Source: Terriglobia bacterium | GTDB taxonomy: Bacteria > Acidobacteriota > Terriglobia > Terriglobales > Acidobacteriaceae | Assembly (NCBI GenBank): GCA_020073665.1 | Contig: JAIQEU010000008.1 | Span: 69,748-133,747, forward strand | Length of the DNA: 64,000 nucleotides | Direction: 5' to 3' | In this document: piece by piece, positions 4,196 through 40,653 of the stretch | How positions within the stretch are numbered: the first letter of the stretch is position 1 | Layout: every line of letters begins with the position of its first letter | Program-made: the position numbers and the translations under genes | Notes under the pieces: generated by a model | Told to the model about the DNA's origin: nothing | The model's database searches: none | What the model saw: the letters and a program-made list of their open reading frames with translations, nothing else

Positions 4196-4205
4196 CCCGC
4201 TCCAC

Positions 4206-4236: not shown

Positions 4237-4284
4237 GTCCTGACTGAATGCCAAGTGCTAATTGCTAGCTGCCAGTTGCAAACC

Positions 4285-4602: not shown

Positions 4603-4615
4603 AGTGACTCCGGTG

Positions 4616-4897: not shown

Positions 4898-4962
4898 TCG
4901 CCTTATACTAACGCGACGCGGTACTACTGTCAAGCGTTACTATGGTGACGGGAGTACGCTCC

Positions 4963-4994
4963 CAAAAGCAAAAGGGACAGCCGAAGCCGCCCCC
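4963..4994 (-). terminator. Terminator downstream of ahcY
   Basis: On the minus strand GGGCGGC, a TTCG loop and GCTGTCC (4974-4993) form a UUCG-capped stem followed by CTTTTGCTTTT, 34 bases after the ahcY stop. Confidence 0.75.
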
Positions 4995-5026
4995 GTTGGG
5001 AATTTGCTAATTGCTAGTTGCTGCCT

Positions 5027-6304: not shown

Positions 6305-6445
6305 ACTTCTCCTGTGGCGCGTTTAGAAATTTTGATTGCGATCGATCGCTACGAATTACCGTACGAATCAAGGATACAGGAAACCCGGGGAGGTTCGTTC
6401 CTGCGTGAGCAGCTTGGTCTTGCTTTTAAGCTCTTGCTTTGAAAG

Positions 6446-6542
6446 GGCGCGACTTCAGTCGCGCCGTCAAGCCCCAGATTTGCGAAGGGCACGGCTTTAG
6501 CCGTGCCACTCCGCGTCAAAAGAACAGGGGGCTTTAGCCCCC
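6446..6542. repeat. Cluster of three CTTYAG-centred palindromes between metK and ahcY
   Basis: Three perfect hairpins share the centre CTT(C/T)AG but differ in stem: 6446-6465 (GGCGCGA arm), 6488-6507 (GGCACGG arm) and 6527-6542 (GGGGG arm). The last, read on the minus strand, is followed by TGTTCTTTTG and lies just behind metK, so it could terminate metK. Shared centres with different stems suggest a repeat family under selection for pairing, not one copied stem. Confidence 0.7.
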
Positions 6543-6548
6543 GAGTGG

Positions 6549-7733: not shown

Positions 7734-7959
7734 AGTTAATTTCTCCTTCGGCGATCGGGAGGTTACGCCCAGCGAGAAGAACAGACCAACAACCGCCGCT
7801 CAAAGATTGTCTGGAGGCTCTAAAAACCGTATCAGAGAAGGCCATTCTGCGCAATGGTTTTGGGCCGATACGGCGCCCGGAACCAGCCAGACGAATCCGA
7901 GGAGTAGCGGGCGGGGAGTAGCTGGGGTTCAATGGCGAACCGTTCCGGTCGAAGTGCAA

Positions 7960-8853: not shown

Positions 8854-8942
8854 TGTTGCGCTCTCCCACCAGCCGGAATGATTTCAGGCCAGCCCGCAAA
8901 ACACAAATACTATGTTAAGCGGAGGTTGCTGAAACGCATGAA

Positions 8943-8971
8943 ATTATAGGAGCGGAGAGTCGGGTTGTTAA
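8943..8971 (-). promoter_or_regulatory. Sigma-70-type promoter upstream of rodZ
   Basis: On the minus strand TTAACA (8971-8966), a 17-base spacer and TATAAT (8948-8943) form a near-consensus promoter about 90 bases ahead of the rodZ start. Confidence 0.65.
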
Positions 8972-9065
8972 CCGCTCAGCCGGTTGATACCAAGGCGGCT
9001 CCAAAACGGCCAATCCAGGTGTCCTTTCGACAGGTAGCTTGGGGGGTTCAGGTTACTTAGGTACA

Positions 9066-9095
9066 TTGCCCACCCTCCCAAATCGCACCTATAAT
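9066..9095 (+). promoter_or_regulatory. Promoter upstream of the diguanylate cyclase gene
   Basis: TTGCCC at 9066-9071, an 18-base spacer and a perfect TATAAT at 9090-9095 precede the ATG at 9133 by 37 bases. Confidence 0.6.
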
Positions 9096-9132
9096 TTGAG
9101 CACTTCCGCCCCGTTTTTGAGGACAGCTGTCA

Positions 9133-10197
9133 ATGACCAAGGCCACCGCCGCAAGCCCGGAACCAGAGCGCAATCGGCAGAGCCAGGAACTCAACATCTT
9201 TCACGATGTTGCCAAGGCCCTGACCTCGATGCTCGACCTGGACTCCATCCTGCAGGCCATCATGGAGAAAATGGCGGAATATTTTCGGCCTGACACCTGG
9301 TCGCTGCTCATGGTGGACGAAGAGCGCAACGAGCTCTACTTTGCGATCGCGGTCGGCAGCGCTGCGGAAGCTCTGAAAAATGTTCGCCTGAAGGTGGGCG
9401 AAGGCATCGCCGGATGGGTGGCCAAGCACGGTGAGCGGCTGATCGTGCCCGATGTGCTGACCGACCCGCGTTTCGCCAAACGAATCGACGAAATGACCAA
9501 GTGGGAGACGCGCTCCATCATCTGCGTGCCACTGCGTTCCAAGCACCGGGTGCTGGGCGTGATTCAACTGGTCAACGTCAACATGCAGGGCTTCAGCGAC
9601 CAGGAGCTGTTCTTTTTACAGTCGCTGTGCGACTACGCCGCCATTGCCATCGAAAACGCGCGCTCGGTGGAAAAGATTCAGGAACTGACCATCACCGACG
9701 ACTGCACTGGCCTGTACAATGCCCGCCATCTTTACAAGACGCTGGAAACCGAGGTCTACCGCTCGGCGCGCTTCAACTACGAATTCACGGTACTGTTCAT
9801 TGACCTCGACCACTTCAAGCAGGTCAACGATACCCACGGCCACCTGATCGGGAGCAAGCTGCTGGCGGAGATCGGCTACCTGATCAAGGCGCAGTTGCGC
9901 TTGATTGATTACGCCTTCCGCTATGGCGGTGACGAATTCGTGGTATTGCTGCCCCAGACCGGAAAAGATTCCGCGCTGGTAGTGGCACGCCGTCTGCGCG
10001 ACACGCTCCGCACCACATTGTTTTGCAAGGAAGAAGGACTCAACCTGAATATCCGCGCTTCCATCGGCGTGGCCACCTACCCGCACGACGCCCAAACCAC
10101 GCACGATGTTATCCGCCAAGCCGACGAAATGATGTACCTGGTAAAGAACACCACTCGCGACAACATCGGGATCGCACAGCGGGGAGTGATGAAGTAG
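9133..10197 (+). CDS. GAF-GGDEF diguanylate cyclase
   Basis: The product has 354 residues. A GAF sensor domain covers about 25-175 (VGEGIAGWVAKHGERLIVPDV, TRSIICVPLRSKHRVLGVIQLVN), followed by a coiled helix (SVEKIQELTITDDCTGLYNARHL) and a GGDEF domain. The active site reads RYGGDEF, with GGDEF at residues 265-269, so cyclic-di-GMP synthesis should be possible. RLID (256-259), five residues before GGDEF, is an intact RxxD inhibitory site, implying product feedback. No membrane segment is seen, so it is cytoplasmic. The GAF ligand cannot be told from sequence. Two PilZ-domain proteins elsewhere in the window (34055-34813 and 51322-51735) are candidate receptors. Confidence 0.92.
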   Translation: MTKATAASPEPERNRQSQELNIFHDVAKALTSMLDLDSILQAIMEKMAEYFRPDTWSLLMVDEERNELYFAIAVGSAAEALKNVRLKVGEGIAGWVAKHGERLIVPDVLTDPRFAKRIDEMTKWETRSIICVPLRSKHRVLGVIQLVNVNMQGFSDQELFFLQSLCDYAAIAIENARSVEKIQELTITDDCTGLYNARHLYKTLETEVYRSARFNYEFTVLFIDLDHFKQVNDTHGHLIGSKLLAEIGYLIKAQLRLIDYAFRYGGDEFVVLLPQTGKDSALVVARRLRDTLRTTLFCKEEGLNLNIRASIGVATYPHDAQTTHDVIRQADEMMYLVKNTTRDNIGIAQRGVMK

Positions 10198-10246
10198 CTT
10201 CCAGCTTCCCACCCCCGTAACTCCTGCGCGATGAATTTGTTTGAAC

Positions 10247-10543
10247 CTAGTGCTTTCTCTCACCGGGCGAGGTGTGAGTGTTGTCGTATTGAATGCCTTC
10301 CTCAACCTGGCGGATGGCATCGTTAATCAGAGCGATGGCCTTGGCGCGATGGCCACCCTTGTCGCGAGAAGCAGATTCCAAGGCTCGCTTGGCTTCGCGG
10401 AGATGCTCGAGAGCGGAAACCATTTCCGGTTGGTTCTCGGGCTTGGGCGCAGGTGCAGGCGCCGACGCTGCAAAGGCAGCGGATGATGCGCCCAAGACCA
10501 GGCTGAGGATCGCGGCGGCAAACACGGCCATCATTCTTTTCAT
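10247..10543 (-). CDS. Small secreted helical protein
   Basis: The predicted protein has 98 residues, starting at ATG 10543 with AGGAAGA upstream. After a signal peptide (MKRMMAVFAAAILSLVLGAS to about AFAA) and a Pro/Ala linker comes a helical module: QPEMVSALEHLREAKRALES, KGGHRAKAIALINDAIRQVEEGIQYDN. The same module ends the secreted repeat protein encoded at 21121-22008, where it reads QPEMTAAIQHLREAQRNLES and on to the same IQYDN end. It is thus a shared, probably mobile periplasmic domain of unknown role. It converges on the diguanylate cyclase gene with a 49-base gap. Confidence 0.75.
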   Translation of the reverse strand: MKRMMAVFAAAILSLVLGASSAAFAASAPAPAPKPENQPEMVSALEHLREAKRALESASRDKGGHRAKAIALINDAIRQVEEGIQYDNTHTSPGERKH

Positions 10544-10625
10544 TCTTCCTACCTCAAGTGAATTTTGACCCCGGTAGCGCAACATAATAACCCAAAACCA
10601 ATCTGTTCTTGATTTGACCGGTTCG

Positions 10626-11657
10626 CTATCGCTTGGGCGGATCCGTCACCGGCGACTCGCGCGCGCGGCCCACCAGCTTTTCCAGCTTGCCTTCAATCGC
10701 TGCATCTCCGATATGCTGATCCTGCAGCACTCCGTCGGCGTCGATGGTGAAGGTTTGCGGGATCGCACTTACCGCAAACAAGTGGGCGATGGGACCGTCG
10801 AAGCCGCCATCGCGGTACTGCGGCCAGGTCATCTGATTCTTGGCGACGAAGTCCTTCCACTTCTGCTCATCATCGTCGAGACTCACGCTCAGTATCAGCA
10901 GAGGCTGGCCCTGGAATTTCCTGGCGATGTCTCGCATGTGGGGCAGGGCCTCGCGGCATGGTCCGCACCAGGTGGCCCAGAAGTCGATCAGCACAACTCT
11001 ACCTTTCAACTCATCGAGCGAGACTCGCTGACCGTCGGTGGTGGTAACCGAAAACGCTGGCGCCATTCGAGCCCGCGCCAAGTCGGGCGCGCTAATGTAC
11101 CGCAGGGCGCGCTGCCGGTCCGGATCATCGGCCGGCCTCATCTTTACAAACTGCTCAAACTGCGCTTTGGCGGCATCGTCCTGCTTCAACTGGGCGAGGA
11201 TCTGTCCATCAACGAATACCGCATCTGGGAAATTTGCGTACGTGGCCAGCGCCTTGCTCATCTCCTGATGCGCCCGAGCGAAGATCTCTTCCTTGTGCTT
11301 TTCGAGAGCCTCAGCCCGCAGAACGAACCCGAGCTCATAATGGGCGATCGCCAAAGCTTTGTCGCCCTGAGCTTCCGCTATCATCTCTTCCCCAGCGGTT
11401 TCAGCAGTCTTCCAGTCACGCAGCTCGATCCCGTACTTGATCATCTTCTTCTGGCATCCCAGGCAGTGGCCATCGTCCTGCTTATCAGCTTTCTTGAAGT
11501 TATCCAACGCGTCCAGAGTCATGTGGTGCTGCAGGTCGTCGAGAGCGTGCTTGTAGGTTTTGCGGGCTTTCTCGTTGGCGGGACCCTCGGGGTCATCTTG
11601 TGCAAGGGAGGGGATCACGAGGGCGGCCAAGAGCAATAACAATCCGCAGTACCGCAT
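10626..11657 (-). CDS. TlpA-like thioredoxin with N-terminal TPR-type region
   Basis: The predicted protein has 343 residues, starting at ATG 11657 after GGAGG. A signal peptide (MRYCGLLLLLAALVIPSLA) exports it. A helical TPR-like region (about 25-185) contains an extra CLGC pair near residues 65-68. The C-terminal 150 residues are a TlpA/ResA-type thioredoxin fold with the active site WATWCGPC (CGPC at 231-234) and the cis-Pro segment AIPQTFTIDADG. It is likely a periplasmic thiol-disulfide reductase. The Ser/Thr kinase gene ends 172 bases upstream on the same strand. The substrate is unknown. Confidence 0.85.
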   Translation of the reverse strand: MRYCGLLLLLAALVIPSLAQDDPEGPANEKARKTYKHALDDLQHHMTLDALDNFKKADKQDDGHCLGCQKKMIKYGIELRDWKTAETAGEEMIAEAQGDKALAIAHYELGFVLRAEALEKHKEEIFARAHQEMSKALATYANFPDAVFVDGQILAQLKQDDAAKAQFEQFVKMRPADDPDRQRALRYISAPDLARARMAPAFSVTTTDGQRVSLDELKGRVVLIDFWATWCGPCREALPHMRDIARKFQGQPLLILSVSLDDDEQKWKDFVAKNQMTWPQYRDGGFDGPIAHLFAVSAIPQTFTIDADGVLQDQHIGDAAIEGKLEKLVGRARESPVTDPPKR

Positions 11658-11747
11658 GCCAACCTCCTGCGATGAGTCCGCGTGGCGGAGTTCCAACGAT
11701 TTCGGATTCATTTCCCGTAAAGCAGATCACCAGCGGCAGTCACGAGA

Positions 11748-11866
11748 GTAGGCCTGCGACAGCCGTTGCGGAGATCCGCTTCGCTGGACAGCCGGGGGTG
11801 CCGTCCCTACGTAGTTCCTGCGGGGCTGACTACTTCAACCCCGTTATCACGTAGGCCTGCGACAGC
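11748..11866. repeat. 16-bp direct repeat at the 3' end of the kinase gene
   Basis: GTAGGCCTGCGACAGC occurs at 11748-11763 and again at 11851-11866; the second copy encodes the last residues of the kinase propeller gene. The first copy is in the spacer, suggesting a small local duplication past the stop codon. Confidence 0.5.
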
Positions 11867-14412
11867 ACTCGTACATAGACGTATGCGTATGCAGTCCCGT
11901 CGATTGAAAAACGAGGTGCACCCGTGGACGAGACTCCCGCTGCCGCATCCGCTCCGAAGGTTTTCCACAAATCCATTTTCCCAGTTACTGTATTCACCTG
12001 ATAGACCTTCGCGGTCTTCTGGTTCCCGCCTCTGGGGGCCACGTACACCGATCCCCCGTCCGGCGACCAACCCGCCACGTAGTAGTGCGAGTCTAGCCCA
12101 GGGATCAGACGAATACCACTTCCCTGGAGCGGCCAGATCCCCCATTTTCCATCGGGTCCCAGCACGGTCGTGCTGTTGCCGTCCGGCGAGAGGTTTACAC
12201 CGGCCACGCCCTCCGGAGTGATGGGCTTGGAATCGCCGTTGCTCAGATCGATCAGATAGTCACGGCCACCGTGCCCGGCTTCAATACCTGAGGCCAGCAG
12301 TCGCTTGCCGTCGGGTAGCCAGCGAACCCCACCGTAGCTTATGGCATCGTGGGTAAGCGGCCTTGCCTCACCCGCACCCGTCGGCACCAGGTTCAGGGAT
12401 CCACCCTTCGCCGGCTTGGTGATCGCCCATTTTGCATCGGGCGAGATGGCCATGGCGTTGCCCTCGCCAATGCGGACCGGAGGCGACCCGTCGGTATCGC
12501 GCAGGAACACGGTGTAATTCGGTCCACCCCCATCGCCTTCCTCGTCGAACAGGATCTTCCGGCCGTCCGGGCTGATATCGCGCAGCCCCGACCATCCGAA
12601 CCACCCCAATTCATGCTCCTCTTTTCCACCTGGCGCTACTCCTCGAATCCCAATACGTGTCTGATGGGTCACCGTCAGGACGACTCCGTTTCGCACATCC
12701 TCCAGCCACATGCCGCCGGGCACGTTGGTGATGGTGCGCAGCTTGCCGGAGAGGGTCACCGCCCGAGGGTTCGAGGCGCTGCCGCTGTTGCTTGAGGTAA
12801 ACCAGATCTCATCGCCCTGTGGAGACCAGAGAATCCCCTGTAATGAGGTCCAGCCGGAGGAAAGCTTTTTCTCTTTGTCCTTGCCATCCGAGCCGATCAC
12901 CGCGACCGAACCCTCGTCGTCGCCTCCGGGGACCTCATGGTCGGCAAAGGCCACCCACTTGCCGTCGGGAGAAATCTTTGGGTGGCTGATCCAGTTGATG
13001 CTGTCCAGCAGCACCTTGCCGACGGGATATTCCAAACGCCAGTGGTGGTTTTCCGGAACGTAACGGACGACTGCCATACTCTCGCCGTTCGCCGCCCAGT
13101 CCGCGTCTTGCACATTGTCCAGCACTTCGCGTGGCGATCCTCCACTGATGGGCACCCTCGCCAGCGTCCCAGACCGCGCGTAGCCACCTAGCCCCACCGT
13201 GTTGAGGCGAACCGCCAGTTCTCCGTTCTTGGAGATCGAAAGCAGCTCCGCATCCTTGAGCCCCAGTTCGCGCGCCCCGGGATCGTCGGTGCGCGCCATG
13301 TAGAGCTGGCGGTCGCCTCCCTCCCACGATGCGCTGTAAACAATGCTGCCGTCGGGGGTGAACCGGGCATTGCCGATGGAACCCATGCGAAAGGTGATTT
13401 GCTGGTACTCGGCCACAGACGGAGGACCGCCAGCCCTGCCGAGCCACCAGCCGAGGCCGAGCATCACCAGCGCGACACCAAGACCACCCGCCAGACCGGC
13501 CAGCAACTTGCGACGCGGCGCTCCACTGGCAACCGGCAGGGCCTTAGCGGTGGTGCTGGAGACCCCGGAAAGGTGTTCGAGATCAAATGCGATGTCGCTG
13601 GCGGAGTGGAAGCGCGCCTCGGGATTCTTTTCCAGGCAGTGATGCACGATGCGCTCCAGCGCCGGCGAAACGTTGCGGTTGGTCTCGGCCAGTTCGGGAG
13701 GGTCTTCTTTAAGAATTGAACTCATCGTGTCGGCGGGAGTGTCTCCGTGAAACGCCCGCTTGCCGGAGAGCATCTCGTAGAGAATTGCGCCGAAGCTGAA
13801 GATGTCGGAGCGGGCATCCAGGGTCAAACCACGCACCTGTTCGGGCGACATGTATCCCGCCGTGCCCAGCACCACGCCGGCTTCAGTGCCGTGGGTGGCG
13901 GTGGGCAGTGTGGTGTGCGCGCCGGGTTCAGCCTGGGTGAGTTTGGCCAGACCAAAGTCGAGGATTTTGACTCGCCCATCTTTGGTGATGAACAAGTTCT
14001 CCGGCTTGAGGTCGCGATGGACGATGCCCTTTTCGTGGGCCGCGGCCAGTCCGTGGGCAATCTGCAGGGCGTAGTCCAGGGCCTTGCGCACCGCGATTGA
14101 TCCGGTGCGCAAGCGTTCCCGCATGGTCTCTCCCTCAAGTAGTTCGGAGACCACGTAAGGCGAGCTATCGCTGGTGCCAATATCGAATACCGCCAGAATG
14201 TTGGGATGGTTCAGGGCGGCGGTGGCGAGGGCCTCTTGCTCAAAGCGGCGGAGCCGCTCGGCGTCGCGAGTGAGCGCGTGCGGCAAGACCTTGATCGCTA
14301 CTTCACGTTTGAGGCGAGAATCACGGGCACGATAGACCTCGCCCATGCCGCCTGCGCCCAGAAGGGAAACAATTTCGTATGGCCCGAGTTTGGTGCCAGA
14401 GGTCAGGTTCAT
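11830..14412 (-). CDS. Membrane Ser/Thr protein kinase with beta-propeller sensor
   Basis: The predicted protein has 860 residues. The N-terminal PknB-type kinase (about 12-280) has the glycine loop GAGGMGEVYRARD, catalytic K41, HRDLKPEN at 132-139, DFG at 152-154 and the SPEQVRG activation segment, so it should be active. A basic stretch then a membrane helix (about 302-325) separates it from an exported about 530-residue region of repeated WD40/TolB-like blades (repeats of the type RFTPDGSIVYSASWEGG and KISPDGKWVAFADHE), probably a propeller that senses a ligand. This layout is a hallmark of acidobacterial kinases. TlpA follows on the same strand. Confidence 0.92.
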   Translation of the reverse strand: MNLTSGTKLGPYEIVSLLGAGGMGEVYRARDSRLKREVAIKVLPHALTRDAERLRRFEQEALATAALNHPNILAVFDIGTSDSSPYVVSELLEGETMRERLRTGSIAVRKALDYALQIAHGLAAAHEKGIVHRDLKPENLFITKDGRVKILDFGLAKLTQAEPGAHTTLPTATHGTEAGVVLGTAGYMSPEQVRGLTLDARSDIFSFGAILYEMLSGKRAFHGDTPADTMSSILKEDPPELAETNRNVSPALERIVHHCLEKNPEARFHSASDIAFDLEHLSGVSSTTAKALPVASGAPRRKLLAGLAGGLGVALVMLGLGWWLGRAGGPPSVAEYQQITFRMGSIGNARFTPDGSIVYSASWEGGDRQLYMARTDDPGARELGLKDAELLSISKNGELAVRLNTVGLGGYARSGTLARVPISGGSPREVLDNVQDADWAANGESMAVVRYVPENHHWRLEYPVGKVLLDSINWISHPKISPDGKWVAFADHEVPGGDDEGSVAVIGSDGKDKEKKLSSGWTSLQGILWSPQGDEIWFTSSNSGSASNPRAVTLSGKLRTITNVPGGMWLEDVRNGVVLTVTHQTRIGIRGVAPGGKEEHELGWFGWSGLRDISPDGRKILFDEEGDGGGPNYTVFLRDTDGSPPVRIGEGNAMAISPDAKWAITKPAKGGSLNLVPTGAGEARPLTHDAISYGGVRWLPDGKRLLASGIEAGHGGRDYLIDLSNGDSKPITPEGVAGVNLSPDGNSTTVLGPDGKWGIWPLQGSGIRLIPGLDSHYYVAGWSPDGGSVYVAPRGGNQKTAKVYQVNTVTGKMDLWKTFGADAAAGVSSTGAPRFSIDGTAYAYVYVRVLSQAYVITGLK

Positions 14413-14471
14413 TGGTGGGCCAGATTATAACCTTAGAGACTGAACAGCGGAGCGACGCATCCGCGCCATCT

Positions 14472-15794
14472 TCAGGCGGGTTGGCAAGCGGCTGAGTAGA
14501 AATTCAACACTTGGCGGATGCGGTCTTCGATGAGAGCGTCAGGTCGTGCGGGGATCGCTCCCGCGCGCACGAATTCGTACTGCTGGGGTAAGCATTGGCC
14601 GAGCAAGGTTAGAGGTATTTCGGCGTGTGACAGGTTCGTCAGCAGTCTTTCCAGTTCCTTCTGCACTGCGGTGTCTGGCCAGTAATAGCGGCAGCGATCA
14701 CTGTAGCTGAATTGGCGCGCGAACTGGAGTTGCGATTCGTCTCCCGAGTAATAGGCTTTCCAGTGCGCGGGATTCGCCAGCATGGCTTGCTCGAGGGCTT
14801 GGCGGACGCGGGAAGTCTGGATGCCTTTTCGCTGGCCGAGCCATTCCTGCTCGATGCTGCTCAGGGCAAAGACGGCTTCACGAAATGCGAACGTGAGCCA
14901 GGGTCCCACTTTCAGAATGGCGAAGTGGTCTTCCACCATTTCGCGCAGCGCCGCTGGGGCTTGGTAGTCGGTGGAGTGGGCTTCGTACACCAGCGCGGGA
15001 GAAACCGGCAGGTTCTGGCTCAAAGGGCGGGCTTTGCGGCGGTCGTAGTCGAAGACGTGGGTGTCGCCGAATTCCACTCCGGGCTGCACCACCAGCCCGA
15101 TGACCCGCTCCCAGGCATCCTCCAGGCCGCGCGCGTGAAACGCTGCGCGCGAAACTTCCAGGGTCTTCTGCATGCTCTCGACGTGGGTGACTTCCGGCGC
15201 CTGCCCAGCGGCCTGCTCGCCTCCGGGGACGGGCACCTCGGTTCCGATTACGTACAGCGGCGCGGGAGCATCCACCGGCAATTCGCGGCGGGCATTTTCG
15301 GCGGCATCGCAGAGCTGGGCAGCGCGCTGAGCAACTTTTTCGTCACCGATGTGGGCGGCGGCATCATCGGCGCAAGCCATGCTCGCATCCAGATGAATCT
15401 TGGCGTAGCCCGCCAGAACACAGGCGCCTACCAACTCGGCGGCTTTAGCGAGGGCAGTCTGACCGGGCTCGCTACGCCAGGGATACGGGCCCAGGTGGTC
15501 GCCTCCCAAGAGGATCTTTTCTTTCGGGAAGCCTACGCGCCGCGCGATGGACGACAAGTATTCTGCAAATTGCGCCGGCGTCAGTCCGGTGTAGCCGCCA
15601 AACTGGTTGACCTGATTTGAGGTTGACTCCACGCAGAGCATGGAATCGCTGGCGAGCGCATGCCGCATGGCAGCCTGCAACACCTGCGGATGCGCGGAGC
15701 AAACCGAAAACAGGCCTACGGATTGCTTGCGGCGGTTGCGGTCAACGATGTCCCGCAGCCAATGGACAGCTGATTCCCTACCCCCAGGAGTCAT
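14472..15794 (-). CDS. GatZ/KbaZ-like tagatose-bisphosphate aldolase accessory subunit
   Basis: The predicted protein has 440 residues, starting at ATG 15794 with GGGGTGA upstream. The whole length matches the GatZ/KbaZ family: GLFSVCSAHPQVLQAAMRHA, VESTSNQVNQFGGYTGLTP, ILLGGDHLGPYPW, YAKIHLDASMACADD, YVIGTEVPVPGGE, VVQPGVEFGD and VGPWLTFAFREAVFAL. In enterobacteria this subunit is needed for full activity and stability of the class II tagatose-1,6-bisphosphate aldolase GatY/KbaY, and it was once called a putative tagatose-6-phosphate kinase. No aldolase partner lies in the window. It sits 21 bases after the giant kinase gene on the same strand, suggesting co-transcription, and it ends just before the other kinase gene. 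Confidence 0.85.
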   Translation of the reverse strand: MTPGGRESAVHWLRDIVDRNRRKQSVGLFSVCSAHPQVLQAAMRHALASDSMLCVESTSNQVNQFGGYTGLTPAQFAEYLSSIARRVGFPKEKILLGGDHLGPYPWRSEPGQTALAKAAELVGACVLAGYAKIHLDASMACADDAAAHIGDEKVAQRAAQLCDAAENARRELPVDAPAPLYVIGTEVPVPGGEQAAGQAPEVTHVESMQKTLEVSRAAFHARGLEDAWERVIGLVVQPGVEFGDTHVFDYDRRKARPLSQNLPVSPALVYEAHSTDYQAPAALREMVEDHFAILKVGPWLTFAFREAVFALSSIEQEWLGQRKGIQTSRVRQALEQAMLANPAHWKAYYSGDESQLQFARQFSYSDRCRYYWPDTAVQKELERLLTNLSHAEIPLTLLGQCLPQQYEFVRAGAIPARPDALIEDRIRQVLNFYSAACQPA

Positions 15795-15815
15795 TCGAGG
15801 TCACCCCGCTGCTTT

Positions 15816-18800
15816 CTAACCCGGCAAGCCCAACCGGTTGACGATCTGGAGAAACCGGGCTTCAGTGCGGAGTTGGTTATAGGTGGGCCAGGTGCGCGCC
15901 AGCATGACCAAAAGTGGATCCTTCTCGTCGAGTGCCCGTTGCGCGAAAGCGATGGCCTGATCCATGTCTCCGATGGCGGCAGCCGCTGGCGCCAGCATTG
16001 AGGGCTGAACGAACTCGCGCGCACTCCGCGCTTCCAGTTCGCGATACGCGGCGCGAGCGTTGTCGGGTTTGCCCCAGGCGGCGTAAATCAATACCAGCGT
16101 GGACAGCGCCCAGCTGTGACGTCCGGACATGGCCAGTGCGCGCTCACAAACCGCGGCTGCATCCTCATACTGCTCACTGCACAGCAGCGCGTTGGTCAGG
16201 CTCCAGTGGGCCAGGTAAGAGTTGGGATCGAGCTCGAGCCCGCGGCGGCCATGGTCGACCGCCTCAGAAAAACGACCACTGCTTACGCCGGAGAAGCAGA
16301 GGATTACGTTGGCGTAGGCGGACAGCGGGTCGAGTTGATGGAGCTTCAAGAGCTCCTCGCGGCCTTCATGCTCACGGCCAGCAACCCACTGCAAGAAGAA
16401 CAGACCATACCATGACCGGCCCTGGGGATAACTGGGGTTGAGTTCGAGCGCCCGGCGAAATTCCTGTTCGGCGAGCGCAAAATTCAGCTCGTACAGCAAG
16501 GTAGCGCAGGCAAGGGCGCTGTGCGCCTCAGCCAGATCGGGATCCAGTTGGAGCGCTCGTCGTGCCGCCTCCAGCGCGCGGGGCATAGTCTCGCTCGCCG
16601 GCGTGTAACCGGAGTACCCGGAGGTGGTATATCCATCTGCCAACCCGGCCCAAGCCTGGGCATACTCGGGATCGAGAGCCACTGCTTCTTTGAAGCAGTC
16701 AATTGCCTTGCCAATGCTGGGCCCGCGCTGGTAGAGCAGGCCGCGCCCTTTCAGGTACAGCTCGTAAGCGCTCATGTTGCGGGTGGGCGGTTGGACGGCC
16801 TGCGCGCCGCGGTCCGCCGCGAGCGACAGCCTGAGCCTTCCCGCGATCGTGCCAGCGATCTCGTCCTGGACGGCGAAAACATCTTCCATGACGCGGTCGT
16901 AACGTTCCGACCAGAGTTGATAACCGCTACTGGCGTCGATGAGCTGAGCCGTGATGCGCAGACGATCGCCCGAGCGCCGCAGCGTGCCTTCGAGAATGGT
17001 GGCTACGCCGAGTTTAGCTCCTACCGAGCGCAGGTCTTCGTTGCGTCCCTTGAAGGAAAACGCCGAACTGCGGCCCGCCACGCGAAGGCCGGGGATGTGC
17101 GCCAGGGTGTTGATGATTTCTTCGGTGATGCCGTCGGCGAAATATTCCTGCTCGGGATCGCCCGACAGATTCTGAAAGGGCAGGACTGCGATCGCGGGCG
17201 GGACGAGAGGACCCGAAGTGCTCGCCACTTTGGGAGCGGTGACGCCTGGAGCAGACATTGTCGCTTTTTCGGGGATCTCCAGACCGGCCCTGCGCAAACC
17301 GTCGACCAGTTGATCGACTAGTTGCGGATCCCACCACTTGCTGCACTCCTGACGTGCGATGGCTGTGAAGTCCGGCCGCACCTCCAGCAGTTCCCGTGCC
17401 GCATTGCGCGCCATCTCCAGCTCGCCGAGTTGGCCGTAGGTCGCGGCGAGTGCGAGCTCGTTGCGCCAGAAACCGGGCATATTGACTTTTAGGGCAAACT
17501 CCAGCGCGCCCCGGTAGTCGCCTTTGCGATACGCATTGAAGAACGGTGGAAACCAGTACCAGCCAGGGTGATTCGGGTTGAGGTTTCTGGCCTTTTCCAC
17601 CAACTCGCAACCGCGCTCCCAATCGCCGGAATAGGCAAGCAGAAAGCCCATGTACGCCATGGTGAAGCCGTCCAGGGGATTCAGGGCGATGGCCCGCTCC
17701 GCCGAGCTGCGGAAAGCTTGAATTTCCTTGCGAAAGAATAAGACCGAGGCCAGAGCGTGGTGGGCGAGATGATTGGAGGGAGCGATGTCAATCGCCCGCC
17801 GAGCCGCGGCCAGTGCACGTCCGACAGGATCAGGCCGGACGTTAAACCCGTGGTTGTTTTCTTCTCTGTACAGCATCGCCAACAAGGCCCAGCAATCGGA
17901 GTTACCCGGCGCCTGTTGAACGGCCCGTTCCAGGCCCGCTCTTACGCTGGCGTGCTCCTCCGCGTTGACATGCTTGAAGTACGAGAAACCGCGCAGGAAT
18001 GCTTCGTAGGGCGTCAGTTGGTCCTGATTCTTCCCACGGAGAGTTTGGCTCATGCTATACGGCAGGACGCCGTGCGTGTCGGCGACGGTGGAAACGATGC
18101 GGGGAACCAAGTCGTCCAGGAGTTCGAAGACTGCATCCGGCTGAAAAGGGCGATCATACGTTTCTGCCCACAGATGGGCGCCGGAGTGGGTGTCCACGAG
18201 TTGTACGGTGATCCGCAGTTTCGTCCCCGCCTGACGCAGGCTGCCCTCCATCACGTAGCGTGCGCCCAGTTCCTTGCCGGCGGAACGGACGTCGCCCTGG
18301 ACGTATCGCAGCGTCGAACTACGGGCAATGACCCTAAGGTAGGAGAATCGTGACAATCCTGTAACGACGTCTTCGGTTAGTCCTTCGGCGAGCGCAGTGA
18401 GGTCCGTGTTCGCGCCGCTGTATTTGAACGGAAGGACCGCAACCCAGAAGCCTTCGTCGGCTCGCGTCGCTCCCGAGCCGGTGGTGGTGGGTGTCGCTCC
18501 AGAAGTTGTGGGCGCCAGAGCCTGCTTTCCCGAATCTTCCGCTGTTTCCAGCCCCGCCTTGCGCAGCCCTTCGATAAAGTGTTCGACTAGTTCGGGCTCC
18601 CACCACTTGGAAAATTCATCGCGCACCGCGGTGGCGAAGTCGGGCCGGAGGGTAAGCAAATCCCGCACCGCTTTTTGCGCCGCTTCGCGCCGGCCGAGTT
18701 GCCCAAGCGCCGCAGCCAATGCGGCGTGAGTGGCGAAGTAACCGGGCATGTTGATTCTGAGGGCAGCTTCCAGGGCCTCGGCGTATTGACCCTTGTTATA

Positions 18801-20633
18801 GGCATTTACAAACAGCGCATTCTGGTACCAACCGGGATGGTTGGGATTGAGCTGCATGGCGGATTCCACCAGCTTGCAGCCGCGGTCCCAGTCGCCCGCA
18901 TAAGCGATGAGCAAGCCCATAAAAGCAGTGGTGGATCCATCCATCCGATTCAGCGCAATCACCCGGTCGGCGGCGGCGCGGAAGCCGAGCTTGTCCTTCT
19001 GGAAGAAAAGACTGGTAGCCAGTGCCCAGTAGCCAAGGTGATTGGAGGGCGCCAGTTGCACGGCGCGTTGAGCGGCGACGACTGCCCGGGCAAGCGGATC
19101 GGGCCCGGGGTTGAACCCTTGGGCATACTCGCCGCGGTAAATCATGGAAAGCATCGCCCAGCAGTCGCTCTGGTCGGGCGCGTTCTTGACGGCGCGCTCC
19201 AGAATCCGCCGCACGATCGCATGTTCGTCGGGCGTGATTCGCTCGAAGTAGCTGAAGGTGCGAAGTACAGCCTCATGCGGAGTCAACTGGTCTTCGCTCT
19301 TGCTGCGCAGCACTTCGCTCATCGTGCGAGGCAAGATGCCGTACTGATCGGCGACGGTAGAGACGATCCGGGGGACCAGATCGTCCTGAAGCTCAAGCAC
19401 CGACTCCGGCTTGAAAGGACGATCATAAGTCTCAGCCCACAGATGAGCGCCAGAGCTTGTGTCTACCAGCTGCACGGCCAGGCGCAGCGTGGCCCCTACC
19501 AGTCGCAGACTTCCCTCCATCATGTAGCGTGCGCCCAGTTCCTTGCCAATAGTCCGCAGATCGGCGGCTTGGTTTGCATAGCGCTGCGTCGAACTGCGCG
19601 CGATGACGCGCAAGTACGAGAATCGTGACAGGCCGGTCACGATATCTTCGGTCAGACCCTCGGCAAGCGCTGCGAGGTCCGAGTTCGAGCCGCCGGATTT
19701 GAAAGGAAGCACGGCAACCCAGAAACCCTGTTCGGCACGGGCCGCGCCCGAGTCGACGGCGCGCAAGGGGGAAACCGAAACCTTCAGCGACGATTGCCGT
19801 GCCAGATCGCGAAATTCGTTGGCCACATCGCGCGCTGTCTGCACACGATGGCCGGGGTCCTTCTCCAGGCATCGGCGAATGATACGCGACAGGTCAGCGG
19901 GCAACTCGGGCCGCAGTTCTGTGACCGGCGGAGGATCGTCGCGCAGGATGGCGGAGATCAGTTCCGCGGACGAATTTCCGTGGAACGGCTGCTTTCCGGT
20001 CGCCATCTGATGCAGCACCACGCCCAGCGAAAAGATGTCGGTGCGATGGTCTAGCGGCCGGCCCGAAACTTGTTCGGGCGACATATAGGCCGGGGTGCCC
20101 ATGACGACGCCCACCTCGGTCTGTCCGGCTGAGGTCATGGTGGCGCCGGTGTGCTGGTCGGCTCGGATGTCTTTCGCCAGCCCGAAGTCCAGAATCTTGA
20201 TGCGACCATCGTCCGCGACCATGACGTTGGCGGGCTTCAAGTCGCGATGCACGATGCCTTTTTCATGGGCGGCGGCGAGCGCGCCGGCCAGCGCGCCGGC
20301 AATCTCGATGATTCGCTGCACCGGCAGGCCCCCTTCGGAAATAACGCGGTCGAGCGACTGTCCCTCAACCAGTTCCATGGTGAGGAAAGGAATGCCGTCG
20401 GATTCTTCGACCGAAAAGATCGTGACAATATGAGGGTGGTTGAGAGCGGCCACGGCGCGAGCTTCGCGCTGAAAGCGCGCTAGGCGTTCGGGATCGCGGG
20501 CCATGTCGGGCGGCAGTACCTTCAGCGCGACCTCGCGGCCGAGCTTCGAGTCGGTGGCGCGATACACCTCGCCCATGCCGCCGGCGCCGATTTTCCCGAG
20601 AATGTGGTAGTGCCCAAGGGTTTGGCCAATCAT
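15816..20633 (-). CDS. Giant cytosolic Ser/Thr kinase with three TolB-like/TPR modules
   Basis: The predicted protein has 1605 residues. The N-terminal kinase (1-280) is complete: GAGGMGEVYRATD, K38, HRDLKPAN with D131, DFG at 149-151 and SPEQVSGRPLDHRTD. No membrane helix follows. Instead there are three copies of a TolB-like alpha/beta domain plus TPR array. Module 1 starts near residue 303 (GFWVAVLPFKSGG), module 2 near 728 (GFWVAVLPFKYSG), so the period is about 425 residues, and they are alike throughout, including the NPNHPGWY and RPDFxxxxRxExSKWW marks. Module 3 (from about 1146, AIAVLPFQNLSGDPEQEYF) is the more common type seen with adenylate cyclases and ends in further TPRs. Modules 1 and 2 look like an internal duplication. 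It probably signals through protein contacts. Confidence 0.9.
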   Translation of the reverse strand: MIGQTLGHYHILGKIGAGGMGEVYRATDSKLGREVALKVLPPDMARDPERLARFQREARAVAALNHPHIVTIFSVEESDGIPFLTMELVEGQSLDRVISEGGLPVQRIIEIAGALAGALAAAHEKGIVHRDLKPANVMVADDGRIKILDFGLAKDIRADQHTGATMTSAGQTEVGVVMGTPAYMSPEQVSGRPLDHRTDIFSLGVVLHQMATGKQPFHGNSSAELISAILRDDPPPVTELRPELPADLSRIIRRCLEKDPGHRVQTARDVANEFRDLARQSSLKVSVSPLRAVDSGAARAEQGFWVAVLPFKSGGSNSDLAALAEGLTEDIVTGLSRFSYLRVIARSSTQRYANQAADLRTIGKELGARYMMEGSLRLVGATLRLAVQLVDTSSGAHLWAETYDRPFKPESVLELQDDLVPRIVSTVADQYGILPRTMSEVLRSKSEDQLTPHEAVLRTFSYFERITPDEHAIVRRILERAVKNAPDQSDCWAMLSMIYRGEYAQGFNPGPDPLARAVVAAQRAVQLAPSNHLGYWALATSLFFQKDKLGFRAAADRVIALNRMDGSTTAFMGLLIAYAGDWDRGCKLVESAMQLNPNHPGWYQNALFVNAYNKGQYAEALEAALRINMPGYFATHAALAAALGQLGRREAAQKAVRDLLTLRPDFATAVRDEFSKWWEPELVEHFIEGLRKAGLETAEDSGKQALAPTTSGATPTTTGSGATRADEGFWVAVLPFKYSGANTDLTALAEGLTEDVVTGLSRFSYLRVIARSSTLRYVQGDVRSAGKELGARYVMEGSLRQAGTKLRITVQLVDTHSGAHLWAETYDRPFQPDAVFELLDDLVPRIVSTVADTHGVLPYSMSQTLRGKNQDQLTPYEAFLRGFSYFKHVNAEEHASVRAGLERAVQQAPGNSDCWALLAMLYREENNHGFNVRPDPVGRALAAARRAIDIAPSNHLAHHALASVLFFRKEIQAFRSSAERAIALNPLDGFTMAYMGFLLAYSGDWERGCELVEKARNLNPNHPGWYWFPPFFNAYRKGDYRGALEFALKVNMPGFWRNELALAATYGQLGELEMARNAARELLEVRPDFTAIARQECSKWWDPQLVDQLVDGLRRAGLEIPEKATMSAPGVTAPKVASTSGPLVPPAIAVLPFQNLSGDPEQEYFADGITEEIINTLAHIPGLRVAGRSSAFSFKGRNEDLRSVGAKLGVATILEGTLRRSGDRLRITAQLIDASSGYQLWSERYDRVMEDVFAVQDEIAGTIAGRLRLSLAADRGAQAVQPPTRNMSAYELYLKGRGLLYQRGPSIGKAIDCFKEAVALDPEYAQAWAGLADGYTTSGYSGYTPASETMPRALEAARRALQLDPDLAEAHSALACATLLYELNFALAEQEFRRALELNPSYPQGRSWYGLFFLQWVAGREHEGREELLKLHQLDPLSAYANVILCFSGVSSGRFSEAVDHGRRGLELDPNSYLAHWSLTNALLCSEQYEDAAAVCERALAMSGRHSWALSTLVLIYAAWGKPDNARAAYRELEARSAREFVQPSMLAPAAAAIGDMDQAIAFAQRALDEKDPLLVMLARTWPTYNQLRTEARFLQIVNRLGLPG

Positions 20634-21120: not shown

Positions 21121-22008
21121 ATGTTTAAGACACGTTTTGCGATTTTCTTGATGATGGCGTTGTCGCTTCTGCTGCTAAGAACGGCAGCGGCCCAGGACGC
21201 AGGGCAGTATCTGATTCTCAGTGCGCAGTATGGCAGCGAGCAGCGGCATGTGGATGTGACCAACCGGCTGAAGGAACTGGCGCGCGCCGACCGGCAATTC
21301 CGATTGGACTTCCGGACGTTCAACGTGGATCCGGATGAGGGACATGCGAAATCGCTGCGGATTTTTGCGCGTGATCCGAACGGGCGCGAGCGCATGTTTG
21401 AGTATCGTGATGGCAGCGTGATTGACGGCGCGCAGTTCCGAGGCTGGGGCAGCGGCCAATGGGGAGGGGACAACGACCGCTGGAGTGGCAACTGGAATGG
21501 CGGAGACAATGACGGCGACTCTGGCCAGTTCCTGATTCTCAGTGCTCAGTATGGGAGCGAGCGTCGCCATGTGGATGTGACCAACCGGCTGAAAGAACTG
21601 GCGCGCGCCGACCGGCAATTCCGATTGGACTTCCGGACGTTCAACGTGGATCCGGATGAGGGACATGCGAAATCGCTGCGGATTTTTGCGCGTGATCCCA
21701 ACGGGCGCGAGCGCATGTTTGAGTATCGCGATGGCAGCGTGATTGACGGTGCGCAGTTCCGAGGCTGGGGCAGCGGCCAATGGGGCGGGGACAACGACCG
21801 CTGGAGCGGCAACTGGAATGGCGGTTATGGCGGCGGCAACGAGGCACAACCCGAGATGACCGCAGCCATCCAGCACCTGCGCGAGGCGCAAAGGAACCTC
21901 GAGTCAGCTTCGCACGACAAAGGTGGCCACCGCGTGAAGGCTCTGCAGTATATCCAGCAGGCCATCGCGGAGGTCGAGGCGGGCATTCAATACGACAACA
22001 GGCATTAA
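21121..22008 (+). CDS. Secreted protein with two near-identical domains and a helical tail
   Basis: The predicted protein has 295 residues. ATG 21121 follows a GGAGACT site and opens a clear signal peptide (MFKTRFAIFLMMALSLLLLRTAAA). Two about 100-residue domains follow, each beginning YLILSAQYGSE or FLILSAQYGSE, then RHVDVTNRLKELAR, FNVDPDEGHAKSLRIFARDP and ending in a W/G/N-rich strip (GWGSGQWGGDNDRWSGNWNGG). They differ in only a few residues. The fold resembles small bacterial DUF3395-like domains, but this is an impression. The C-terminal about 55 residues are the QPEM...IQYDN helix module also found at 10247-10543. It is likely periplasmic; the role is unknown. Confidence 0.82.
   Translation: MFKTRFAIFLMMALSLLLLRTAAAQDAGQYLILSAQYGSEQRHVDVTNRLKELARADRQFRLDFRTFNVDPDEGHAKSLRIFARDPNGRERMFEYRDGSVIDGAQFRGWGSGQWGGDNDRWSGNWNGGDNDGDSGQFLILSAQYGSERRHVDVTNRLKELARADRQFRLDFRTFNVDPDEGHAKSLRIFARDPNGRERMFEYRDGSVIDGAQFRGWGSGQWGGDNDRWSGNWNGGYGGGNEAQPEMTAAIQHLREAQRNLESASHDKGGHRVKALQYIQQAIAEVEAGIQYDNRH
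21205..21824 (+). repeat. Nearly identical tandem duplication inside the secreted protein gene
   Basis: Unit 1 spans 21205-21503 and unit 2 spans 21526-21824, with a period of 321 bases, exactly 107 codons. Most of the two units match base for base, including synonymous positions, which indicates a recent duplication or ongoing gene conversion. Confidence 0.92.
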
Positions 22009-37631: not shown

Positions 37632-38369
37632 CTAGAAGGGTCGCCTGCGACCTCGCCCATAGCGGCCTTGGCCGCCTCCGAAGGCGCTGATGTGAAGCCC
37701 CAGGGAGCGCAGGCTCGCGCTTCCGTTGGTCCCGCCGTTCAATTTGATCTCAATGCTGAAGGGATATGGGTTGTCGGGACTGGCCTCGCGGAACTCCGCT
37801 CTTCCGCGCTGGTACGGAGCTATCCGGTGCTGCTCCACGCAGTTCTCTTCGGGGCTGCCGGCGTCGCACCGGAATGCGCTCATGCCCTGGCCTGAAATGC
37901 AATTCTCACCGCATTCAACGGTAGTGATGTTTTCCTCGAACCCATCGCCTGTCGCGGCTCGCTGCTCGTGAAAGTGCGGCCAGGTAAGGTTCCCGGTTGC
38001 GCCATAGACCGTGCCGCGAATCATGATGTTAACGCTTTCTCCCGCTTTGACATTCCACTTGTCGGTACCTCCCAGGAGCAGGGTGTTGGGACCGTTGGGA
38101 TCGCGGCGCATGTGGATTTCCGAGCCATTGCGTCCCAGGCGGTCGCAGATCTTGGAGGGAGTGCTGGTGCAGGAATACGAGATCCAATGGTAGACGGCAG
38201 GAGGCAGCGCGCAGGTTGTGCCAATGTAGCTCGCGACTGTCCCAACTTCGCAGATCTCGCCTTCGCGGTCAGGCGGCGAGGCTTGAGCGCGATTTTGCAC
38301 TCCAAACACCATCAGCCCGAATACCAGCAGCCCAGCCAATCCGCAAAAACGAGGTCTCAATTCCCGCAT
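37632..38369 (-). CDS. Secreted cysteine-rich protein, unknown function
   Basis: The predicted protein has 245 residues. A signal peptide (LAGLLVFGLMVFGV to about QASP) precedes a domain with many cysteines (REGEICEVG, GTTCALP, YSCTSTPSKICDRLG, VECGENCISG, FRCDAG, EENCVEQH), so several disulfides are likely. A beta-sandwich-like strip occurs in the middle (WNVKAGESVNIMIRGTVYGATGNLTWPHFHEQ). The C-terminus is Gly/Arg-rich. No known family is recognised. It is transcribed alone on the minus strand. Confidence 0.7.
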   Translation of the reverse strand: MRELRPRFCGLAGLLVFGLMVFGVQNRAQASPPDREGEICEVGTVASYIGTTCALPPAVYHWISYSCTSTPSKICDRLGRNGSEIHMRRDPNGPNTLLLGGTDKWNVKAGESVNIMIRGTVYGATGNLTWPHFHEQRAATGDGFEENITTVECGENCISGQGMSAFRCDAGSPEENCVEQHRIAPYQRGRAEFREASPDNPYPFSIEIKLNGGTNGSASLRSLGLHISAFGGGQGRYGRGRRRPF

Positions 38370-38523: not shown

Positions 38524-38557
38524 GACCCGCTCTGCTATGATTTTGCCCGGTGCCTTC
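38524..38557 (+). repeat. 34-bp direct repeat carrying an extended -10 promoter, left copy
   Basis: The 34 bases from GACCCGCTCTGCTATGATTT onward are identical to 39780-39813. They include TGCTATGAT (an extended -10 element at about 38533-38541) and the GTG that starts tmk in the right copy. Here the same GTG (38550) opens an 11-codon frame that stops at 38583-38585, overlapping the ATG of the DUF2071 gene. Confidence 0.85.
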
Positions 38558-38577
38558 CCTGATTCAATTTCGCTTAG

Positions 38578-39306
38578 ATGTCTAAGTCAGACCGAGTTTT
38601 CCTTACCGCTGAATGGCGAGACCTCGTGATGTTGAACTACGAGGTTGAACCCAACCTCTTAAGTCGATACGTTCCACCCGGGACGGCGCTGGATTCATTC
38701 AAGGGACGAACCTACGTCAGCCTTGTGGGCTTTCGGTTCTGCCGCACAAAGTTGCTCGGGTGTTTTCCAGCTCCGTTTCACGCCAATTTCGACGAGGTAA
38801 ACCTGCGCTTCTACGTTCGTCGCAAGGCAGGCAACGATGAGCGGCGAGGGGTTGTATTTATTGCGGAAGTAGTGCCCAGACGGGCAATTGCGGCGACCGC
38901 TCGACTAGCATACGGGGAGAACTACATATGCTCCCCGATGAAACACCGCGTTGAGACCGAAGGGTTAAACAAGACGGCCGAGTATCAATGGCAAGTCGGC
39001 AACCAGCGATGCAGGCTCTTTGCTCAGACCGTAGGCCTTCCAACACATCCTCAAGAGGGGAGTTTGGAACAGTTCATCACTGAACACTACTGGGGTTATT
39101 CGACTCAGCGAAGGGGTGGTTGCGTCGAATATCACGTGTCGCATGTCCCATGGCAAGTGTGGGCAACCGATCAAGCTGGATTTGAAGGAGAGGCCAGCGC
39201 TCTTTACGGAAGCGAACTCGCAACGGTACTTCAACGACGCCCCGACTGCGCGTTCGTGGCAGATGGCTCACCCGTCATCGTCTTCATGGGAAATCGAGTT
39301 CAATGA
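38578..39306 (+). CDS. DUF2071 (YqjF-type) family protein
   Basis: The predicted protein has 242 residues. Family marks are MLNYEVEPNLLSRYVPPGTALD, the VSLVGFRF segment, NFDEVNLRFYVRR, GVVFIAEVVPRRAIAATARLAYGENY and EHYWGYSTQRRGG. DUF2071 proteins share an acetoacetate-decarboxylase-like fold and have no settled function. The stop overlaps the DCC gene start as ATGA (39303-39306), showing translational coupling. No clear ribosome site precedes its ATG; a short frame from the copied tmk start overlaps it and might couple translation. Confidence 0.87.
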   Translation: MSKSDRVFLTAEWRDLVMLNYEVEPNLLSRYVPPGTALDSFKGRTYVSLVGFRFCRTKLLGCFPAPFHANFDEVNLRFYVRRKAGNDERRGVVFIAEVVPRRAIAATARLAYGENYICSPMKHRVETEGLNKTAEYQWQVGNQRCRLFAQTVGLPTHPQEGSLEQFITEHYWGYSTQRRGGCVEYHVSHVPWQVWATDQAGFEGEASALYGSELATVLQRRPDCAFVADGSPVIVFMGNRVQ

Positions 39307-39725
39307 GAGTGCCAGACCATGAACGGAAGTGCGCTCTCCCTCGCGAGGGATGGATACTTTACGATGGCGGATGCGGATTCTGCTTTCGTTGGGTCCACTT
39401 CTGGAAGAACGTAATTGAAAAGCGGGGCTTTGCGCTTAAGGATTTGCAGTCTGCTTCTGCCGACGGCAGCCTGCAGGTCTCGCCGGAGAATCTGCTGGAC
39501 GATATACGAGTGTTGACCCGTGGCGGAAAATTGGAATCGGGCGCCGACGCGTATCTTTTTGTGGCGCGGCAAATCTGGTGGGCATGGCCTTTCTACGCAA
39601 TCTTCAGCTTGCCGGGCTTTAATTGGATGCTTTGGCAGGGTTATCGTTGGTTCAATCGAAATCGTTATCGAATCTCGCGCCATTGTCCATTACCCCAACA
39701 AGCCAAGGAGCGAATCGACAGTTGA
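39303..39725 (+). CDS. DCC-family (DUF393) thiol-disulfide oxidoreductase-like protein
   Basis: The predicted protein has 140 residues. It opens with GWILYDGGCGFCFRWVHFWK, the DxxCxxC signature of the family, and later has DIRVLTRGGKLESGADAYLFVARQIWWAWPFYAIFSLPGF and a basic C-terminus ending near cysteine-proline. DCC proteins have a thioredoxin-like fold with a membrane-proximal helix. Coupled to DUF2071 by a 4-base overlap, a pairing that also occurs in other bacteria. The pair is flanked by the 34-bp direct repeats. Confidence 0.87.
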   Translation: MRVPDHERKCALPREGWILYDGGCGFCFRWVHFWKNVIEKRGFALKDLQSASADGSLQVSPENLLDDIRVLTRGGKLESGADAYLFVARQIWWAWPFYAIFSLPGFNWMLWQGYRWFNRNRYRISRHCPLPQQAKERIDS

Positions 39726-39779
39726 TGTAACCGTGATCTCACCAATTTTGCGCCCCAAACTCAGCGCGCCACTGGCATA

Positions 39780-39813
39780 GACCCGCTCTGCTATGATTTT
39801 GCCCGGTGCCTTC
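39780..39813 (+). promoter_or_regulatory. 34-bp direct repeat, right copy: promoter and start of tmk
   Basis: Identical to 38524-38557. It carries the extended -10 TGCTATGAT (39789-39797) and the tmk GTG at 39806, so the transcript leader would be very short or absent. Confidence 0.7.
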
Positions 39814-40492
39814 TCACTCCCATCGCGGCCGGTTCATTACCTTCGAAGGACTCGACGGATGCGGCAAGAGCACGCAACTGGAGCGGCTGGCGGCCGCGCT
39901 CCGCAAACATGGCTGTCATGTGGTGGAGACGCGTGAACCCGGCGGTACCGCGACCGGAGACAAGATTCGCAAGCTGCTGCTGGACACGGGGACTTCCGAC
40001 CTCTCCTCGCTGGCAGAACTGGCGCTGATGTTTGCTTCCCGCGCCCAACACATCAAGGAAGTGGTCCAGCCGGCATTGGCCGAAGGGCGGGTGGTGCTGT
40101 GCGACCGCTTTACCGACTCCACCGAGGCCTACCAGGGAGGCGGACGCAAACTGGGCAGCGAACCGGTGCTGGCGCTGCACCACATTCTGTGCAGCGACCT
40201 GCAACCGGATCTCACCATTCTGATGGACTCCGACGTGGCCCACAGCGTGGAACGCGCCCGCCGGCGCAATTCGCGCACCGCCGGGAGTAGCCGCGGCAAG
40301 CCTGACGAGAACCGCTTCGAACAGGAAAGCCGGGCATTTTTTGGACGAGTGCGGCAGGCGTACCTGGCAATCGCCGTCCGTGAACCGGACCGCGTGGCGG
40401 TAGTGGATGCCCGGGGAACGCCGGCAGAAACGCACGCGAGAATCCTGGAAGTTGTGCGGCGCAGGCTGAAGCTGGCAGCAAGGACGGCATGA
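39806..40492 (+). CDS. tmk: Thymidylate kinase
   Basis: The predicted protein has 228 residues from GTG 39806, which lies within the 34-bp repeat. Motifs are FITFEGLDGCGKSTQLERLA (P-loop), ETREPGGTATGDKIRKLLL, LFASRAQH-type LMFASRAQHIKEVV, and VVLCDRFTDSTEAYQGGGR. It phosphorylates dTMP to dTDP. The lid region (RRRNSRTAGSSRGKPDENRFEQE) is arginine-rich, and ends as expected. It is followed by holB, a common neighbour, after an inverted-repeat spacer. Confidence 0.95.
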   Translation: MPSHSHRGRFITFEGLDGCGKSTQLERLAAALRKHGCHVVETREPGGTATGDKIRKLLLDTGTSDLSSLAELALMFASRAQHIKEVVQPALAEGRVVLCDRFTDSTEAYQGGGRKLGSEPVLALHHILCSDLQPDLTILMDSDVAHSVERARRRNSRTAGSSRGKPDENRFEQESRAFFGRVRQAYLAIAVREPDRVAVVDARGTPAETHARILEVVRRRLKLAARTA

Positions 40493-40498
40493 ATTCAG

Positions 40499-40639
40499 CA
40501 CAGAGACACAGAGGCACAGAGAAATTCTGGCTATCACAACTAGAATCTTCTTGCGGAACCAAGTGACGGGTGGCACAGACAGAATGGCCTGCCTGGCTGT
40601 TCAATAACCTGATTTTCTCTGTGTCTCTGTGCCTCTGTG
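40499..40639. repeat. Inverted-repeat spacer element between tmk and holB
   Basis: The left arm CACAGAGACACAGAGGCAC (from 40499) and the right arm (40613-40639, CTCTGTGTCTCTGTGCCTC) are imperfect reverse complements over about 26 bases, around an 88-base interior without coding signal. Each arm is itself built from the word CACAGAG. It resembles a miniature inverted-repeat unit. Confidence 0.6.
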
Positions 40640-40653
40640 GTAAATGATTTCTT

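Follow-up and report, generated by a model that had tools for sequence, protein, structure and literature searches.

A 34-bp direct repeat carrying the predicted tmk promoter flanks a DUF2071-DCC gene pair in a Terriglobia bacterium

Introduction

In prokaryotes, promoters are reportedly captured by, or propagated to, genes other than those they originally served, a subject said to have been treated by Matus-Garcia in 2012 and by Li and Bock in 2019. Direct repeats around an inserted segment are also left by transposons as target site duplications, which are typically shorter than 34 bp. Promoter capture by tandem duplication is known from experiments (PMC11111574). A further group of relevance is that of the bacterial leaderless genes, Acidobacteria among them, which are marked by a TAnnnT box approximately 12 bp before the start codon and which make up about 13% of genes on average in all three Acidobacteria genomes treated (PMC3160421).

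Here, we describe a locus from a member of the Acidobacteriaceae at which these subjects meet. It lies in a stretch of 64,000 nucleotides, referred to in its entirety as the window, and consists of the essential thymidylate kinase gene (tmk) preceded by two genes, encoding a DUF2071 protein and a DCC protein, with an exact 34-nt repeat at either end of this pair. The original prediction, made from the sequence of the window, read the pair as a cassette inserted with duplication of target DNA.

An exact repeat with abrupt edges

The 34 nucleotides at positions 38524-38557 of the window recur at 39780-39813, forming, as predicted, an exact direct repeat with a spacing of 1256 bp. A search of the whole genome, allowing up to three mismatches, returned these two matches and none for a reversed control. 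When the same tolerance was applied to 398 family genomes (this one among them, all taken from a larger group), this genome alone matched. From base composition, approximately 2e-11 exact 34-nt direct repeats are expected per window. The edges of the repeat are abrupt and, as had also been stated, the sequence outside it differs at once, with agreement at chance level on the left side (12 of 40 bases) and on the right (9 of 40). Both copies, which lie on the plus strand, contain the extended -10 element TGCTATGAT. In the left copy (38524..38557) it occupies 38533-38541 and is followed by a GTG at 38550 and by the first coding bases of tmk. Neither copy was detected by a generic promoter scan, which requires a -35 box; no terminator was found in that scan between the DUF2071-DCC pair and tmk.

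The absence of any difference in 34 bases sets a 95% upper bound of 8.4% on the divergence of the two copies. Among relatives the nucleotides flanking the tmk -10 box, as judged by eye, vary widely, and the identity of left and right copies over all 34 bases therefore makes the copying look recent. It follows that two old promoters kept identical by gene conversion or by joint selection, an arrangement for which the working-looking extended -10 box in both copies might be cited, would be a very improbable source of the repeat, given both this variability and the bound on divergence.

Exact direct repeats of at least 20 nt, at spacings of 40-20,000, number 14 in the 230-kb contig (C16), or nine once six pieces of a single tandem repeat are merged. 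The edges are abrupt on both sides in three of these nine (the 34-mer and two pairs of 164 and 21 nt), and in the remaining six similarity extends into the flank on one side or both, as in internal or paralogous repeats. The 164-nt repeat is exact, lies outside the window at contig positions 3624-3787 and 10311-10474, and has its second copy inside a 1120-codon open frame. The 21-nt pair, likewise outside the window (contig positions 10844-26144), probably marks an integrated element, for its copies are separated by 15.3 kb and the right one has a gene of the phage integrase family next to it. The two 20-kb stretches holding these pairs yielded no tRNA, and neither pair is placed at a known promoter. 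Within the window itself, no direct repeat was found that is longer than the two 300-nt tandem copies at 21196-21816 (period 321, 95% identical).

The right copy and the tmk promoter

The tmk gene (PF02223, assigned by Pfam) occupies 39806..40492 on the plus strand and begins with GTG. Its box lies at 39792-39797 in the right copy of the repeat (39780..39813), the GTG at 39806 following 8 nt on, so that the first T stands 14 bp before the start codon. Relatives, which according to the named records form an Acidobacteriota group, commonly have before tmk a TAnnnT box that ends 5-8 nt upstream of an in-frame start codon. When distinct tmk loci of at least 60% identity are considered (window included), 47 of 51 have the box at this spacing, 42 of them with the TGn extension; with the limit lowered to 45% identity, the count is 79 of 96. 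Shuffled upstream regions gave means of 1.1 and 2.4 for these two sets, respectively. In a control set of holB loci the box was found at 4 of 41, against 2.2 after shuffling. The form of the tmk box differs with distance, being TGnTATnAT in the closer genomes and of the TAnACT type in many distant ones; its distance from the start codon is conserved.

With a TAnnnT box approximately 12 bp before its start codon and no Shine-Dalgarno match longer than 3 nt, the tmk gene of the window has the sequence features of a leaderless gene. Because box and spacing are kept at 47 of 51 loci, set against the shuffles and holB, tmk is probably leaderless, with a promoter that would end where the coding sequence begins. 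The right copy, judged by this conservation, is the predicted native promoter and start of tmk, in agreement with the earlier statement that it holds the extended -10 element and GTG start of this gene. Sequence shared with the tmk genes of relatives follows on from the right copy but not from the left, which identifies the left copy as the duplicate.

Downstream, the gap between tmk and holB (40493-40645) contains a 42-nt inverted repeat (83%) of the type CACAGAGGCACAGAG. CTCTGTG stretches similar to it occur 5' of tmk at two other loci (L063 and L023), and together these may point to a dispersed family of palindromic repeats.

The DUF2071-DCC pair and its surroundings

The inserted segment between the repeats comprises 1222 bp (38558..39779, plus strand), with long DNA homology to the closest relatives confined to 38570-39706. 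Its first gene, at 38578..39306 on the plus strand, encodes a DUF2071 protein (PF09844; 197.7 bits against a Pfam cut-off of 27) and its second, at 39303..39725 on the same strand, a DCC thiol-disulfide oxidoreductase-like protein (PF04134; 69.8 bits against 27.8). The start of DCC overlaps the end of DUF2071 through an ATGA, and the position of this start with respect to DUF2071 is shared by close relatives (e.g. L145 to L148). The Pfam assignments confirm the two genes as predicted. A relation of DUF2071 to an acetoacetate-decarboxylase-like fold has been proposed (PMC4520260); our literature search found no work treating DUF2071 together with DCC, and among the works listed on promoter duplication with target site duplication none described a matching case.

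No Shine-Dalgarno match longer than 3 nt precedes DUF2071. The copied GTG, which sits at the expected transcription start of the left copy, opens a mini reading frame of 11 codons (38550..38585, plus strand) that had been missed by the original prediction and that crosses the DUF2071 ATG at 38578 before ending in a TAA at 38583-38585. A mini-frame spanning the DUF2071 start has a chance of roughly one third over the spacer frames, and its presence was dropped as evidence of coupling for this reason. The higher figure of 0.88 from another simulation arose solely from the stop being supplied by the second and third codons of DUF2071 itself.

To the left of the repeat lies a divergent open frame (37632..38369, minus strand) that has no Pfam or NCBIfam match. 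If this frame is real, its transcript cannot cover the DUF2071-DCC pair. In trinucleotide composition the pair is ordinary for the contig, standing at the 81st percentile, and a foreign composition was rejected.

The locus and the pair in relatives

At 117 tmk loci outside this genome, all from other genera, neither DUF2071 nor DCC was found in the flank examined. These loci comprise 113 that are distinct by a stretch inside tmk, and 108 have at least 1 kb of upstream sequence. None of the 117 carries a repeat of the tmk promoter box, and a recurrent duplication of this promoter in relatives was rejected on that basis. Two loci (L092 and L167) have a 14-nt repeat of the promoter region, in neither case involving the box. 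In several relatives PIG-L or rnhB precedes tmk and holB or hfq follows it, an order that matches the window minus the inserted genes. The check originally proposed was for relatives with tmk behind a single copy of the 34-mer and without the cassette. The 117 loci, all from other genera, lack the cassette in the flank examined, and none of the 397 other family genomes contains the 34-mer with up to three mismatches.

This conserved neighbourhood also bears upon the suggestion that the arrangement is an artefact of assembly, in which contigs were falsely joined through the repeat. Thirty-four bases are short enough to confuse small k-mers, but such a join would presuppose a 34-mer at either end of the pair, or a circular form of it. 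Furthermore, the assembly, in 62 contigs, has a completeness rating of 100%, the neighbours of tmk are those seen in several relatives and DUF2071 has a single match in the genome. A false join is hence hardly to be credited.

Relatives of the DUF2071 protein at an E value of 1e-40 or better occur in 52 of the 398 family genomes, this one included. The eight closest other DUF2071 loci are 68-82% identical, and DCC follows in seven of them, only a remnant of it being left in G107a. This latter copy (L143) has a leaderless-type box of its own before DUF2071, so that the pair cannot always be promoterless. At L161 (G107), DUF2071 lies at 6599-7327 on the minus strand, with its own TATCAT box 8 nt before the ATG and a DCC remnant behind.

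The comparison of pairs covered 17 loci, including the window. Loci with no DCC found in the flank examined (L034, L035, L036, L151, L157 and L160) were left out of it, as were L041, other distant relatives of DUF2071 and DUF2071 matches without a locus. The 17 loci represent approximately ten immediate gene contexts. In three relatives the pair lies between an msbA-like ABC transporter gene and lpxB (identified by Pfam in one and by similarity in two). In the present genome the msbA-like gene and lpxB are adjacent, separated by a gap of approximately 80 bp with no pair between them. This site is therefore empty here, although the direction of movement cannot be told from it. No match to the genes beside the G107a copy was found in the present genome, which shows nothing about a former location. 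The absence of the pair from 117 other tmk loci, its location elsewhere in relatives and the empty msbA-like/lpxB site together argue, from comparison of sequences, that the pair was gained by, or relocated to, this tmk locus.

Less can be said about its route. Identities to G107 (82% for DUF2071, 78% for tmk) would fit descent, whilst those to G315 (79% and 70%, respectively) would fit transfer or loss better, as would the case of G009, which is the nearest genome by tmk but has no close copy of DUF2071, only a 53% relative. Gene trees, in which an open fork joins DUF2071 to G107, G061, G315, G276 and G335, and tmk to G036, G014, G009 and G107, neither prove nor exclude transfer. Horizontal transfer of the pair is accordingly to be regarded as possible.

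The left neighbours at pair loci, which are mechanically defined open frames of which some were identified, differ between groups. In the close clade the left frame at all eight other pair loci (in seven genomes) runs in the same direction as the pair, at a distance of 28-122 nt. As the left frame is divergent in the window, unlike in this clade, the pair would here be in need of a promoter. Despite this, five of the eight more distant pair loci have a left frame on the opposite strand and no repeat longer than 9 nt, which argues that a divergent neighbour alone does not require a copied promoter. Together with the box of the G107a copy, they indicate that the pair can come by a promoter in other ways.

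Origin of the repeat

The reading that we favour, with confidence only modestly above even, is that the pair was joined into the tmk promoter with 34 bp of the target duplicated, leaving one copy for each transcription unit. The pair, apparently promoterless at this site, would have become established between the divergent gene and tmk, and the tmk promoter and first codons would have been duplicated during its establishment. Most likely a single repair event was responsible, in which either a staggered break was filled in or the template was switched with re-entry 34 nt upstream. Genes for Ku and for a LigD-type polymerase domain are present in the genome, which makes end joining with fill-in a possible route, one for which the presence of these genes is the evidence. 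We infer both this event and its direction. The structure fits the insertion with target duplication that was originally proposed, as do the native right copy and the location of the pair elsewhere in relatives; the duplication may have been simultaneous with the insertion, as that proposal implied.

We further infer that the left copy may drive transcription of the pair. Its mRNA would start near 38549, at the copied GTG or beside it, with a short leader of approximately 28 nt ahead of DUF2071, whose translation might be coupled to the 11-codon mini-frame. DCC would then be translated by ATGA coupling to DUF2071.

A second model proposes that the promoter was captured stepwise. A silent pair would have landed immediately upstream of the tmk promoter, a tandem duplication covering pair and promoter would have set a second pair after the first promoter and the outer pair would subsequently have been lost. 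Spontaneous tandem duplications that require no homology are reported to give horizontally transferred genes promoters in Escherichia coli (PMC11111574), the final structure (promoter-pair-promoter-tmk) would be identical and, with a divergent gene to its left, the pair could at first have been silent. However, this model requires an insertion, a duplication and a deletion, the last with an endpoint coinciding exactly with the left edge of the repeat. No remnant of a second pair is present, the 40 bases outside the repeat agreeing at chance level on either side. We therefore consider it a tenable but rather unlikely alternative to insertion with duplication of the target.

An alternative scenario to these models is a mobile element, integrated in a site-specific or transposon-type manner with duplication of a 34-bp target or att core. 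In support of this, an exact direct repeat flanks the pair, the pair is found in many gene contexts, and the abrupt 21-nt repeat and integrase gene of the same contig indicate that short-repeat integration probably occurs in this genome. Nevertheless, the insert consists of DUF2071 and DCC only and, in contrast to the 21-nt case, contains no recombinase. The longest terminal inverted match is 6 nt, no tRNA was found at the site and none of the 397 other family genomes contains the 34-mer. At the 16 other pair loci, comparison of 120 nt before the pair with 220 nt at its end gave repeats of at most 9 nt, the exclusion of flanking duplications thus covering lengths above 9 nt, and a search of 72,556 plasmid records for relatives of DUF2071 at an E value of 1e-20 or better matched only one of them. 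Because none of the 16 loci has a repeat longer than 9 nt, repetition of the 34-mer does not belong to the cassette as such. A transposon or integron-like insertion was rejected for the lack of a recombinase, of inverted ends and of such repeats elsewhere, and the probability that we allow to mobile-element integration of any of these kinds is accordingly minimal. Duplication of the transposon type is not supported, and the 34-mer repeat appears to be a feature of one event.

A more speculative extension of the favoured reading, which we hold to be doubtful and less probable than the stepwise model, is that the pair is a wandering and often promoterless two-gene unit which comes to rest next to genes of its host. 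When it came to lie beside a leaderless promoter, promoter and start codon would have been copied as a block, and the mini-frame opened by the copied GTG would couple the pair into an operon. If this were true, leaderless promoters would be unusually portable expression units, because promoter and translation start share the same 20-30 bases.

Comparison with known systems

The leaderless genes described in PMC3160421 and the tmk gene of the window are alike in box and spacing, with the difference that the transcript start of the latter is a predicted one. The left copy departs from that description, its box ending 36 nt before the start of DUF2071. The conserved leaderless-type tmk promoter of this group of bacteria is a useful and testable by-product of the comparison, and the locus illustrates how short a useful piece of promoter can be where genes are leaderless.

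In common with target site duplication by transposons, direct repeats surround an insert. However, the locus has no transposase or other recombinase and no terminal inverted repeat, and duplication does not recur at the other sites of the pair, where a duplication at each insertion would be expected (none of 16 has one longer than 9 nt).

The closest likeness is to promoter capture and propagation, in which an existing promoter likewise comes to stand before another, unrelated gene and is thought to give expression. Here, an identical promoter, as defined by box and spacing only, precedes two unrelated genes, one copy being native and the other new. In contrast to those cases, the copy is local, spans 34 bp only, includes the start codon of the donor and lies exactly at both edges of the inserted pair. 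The significance of the locus resides in the combination of an apparently acquired or relocated pair with a copied housekeeping promoter whose donor could be identified through deep conservation. The process is already known in outline, and the locus provides a clear natural example of it.
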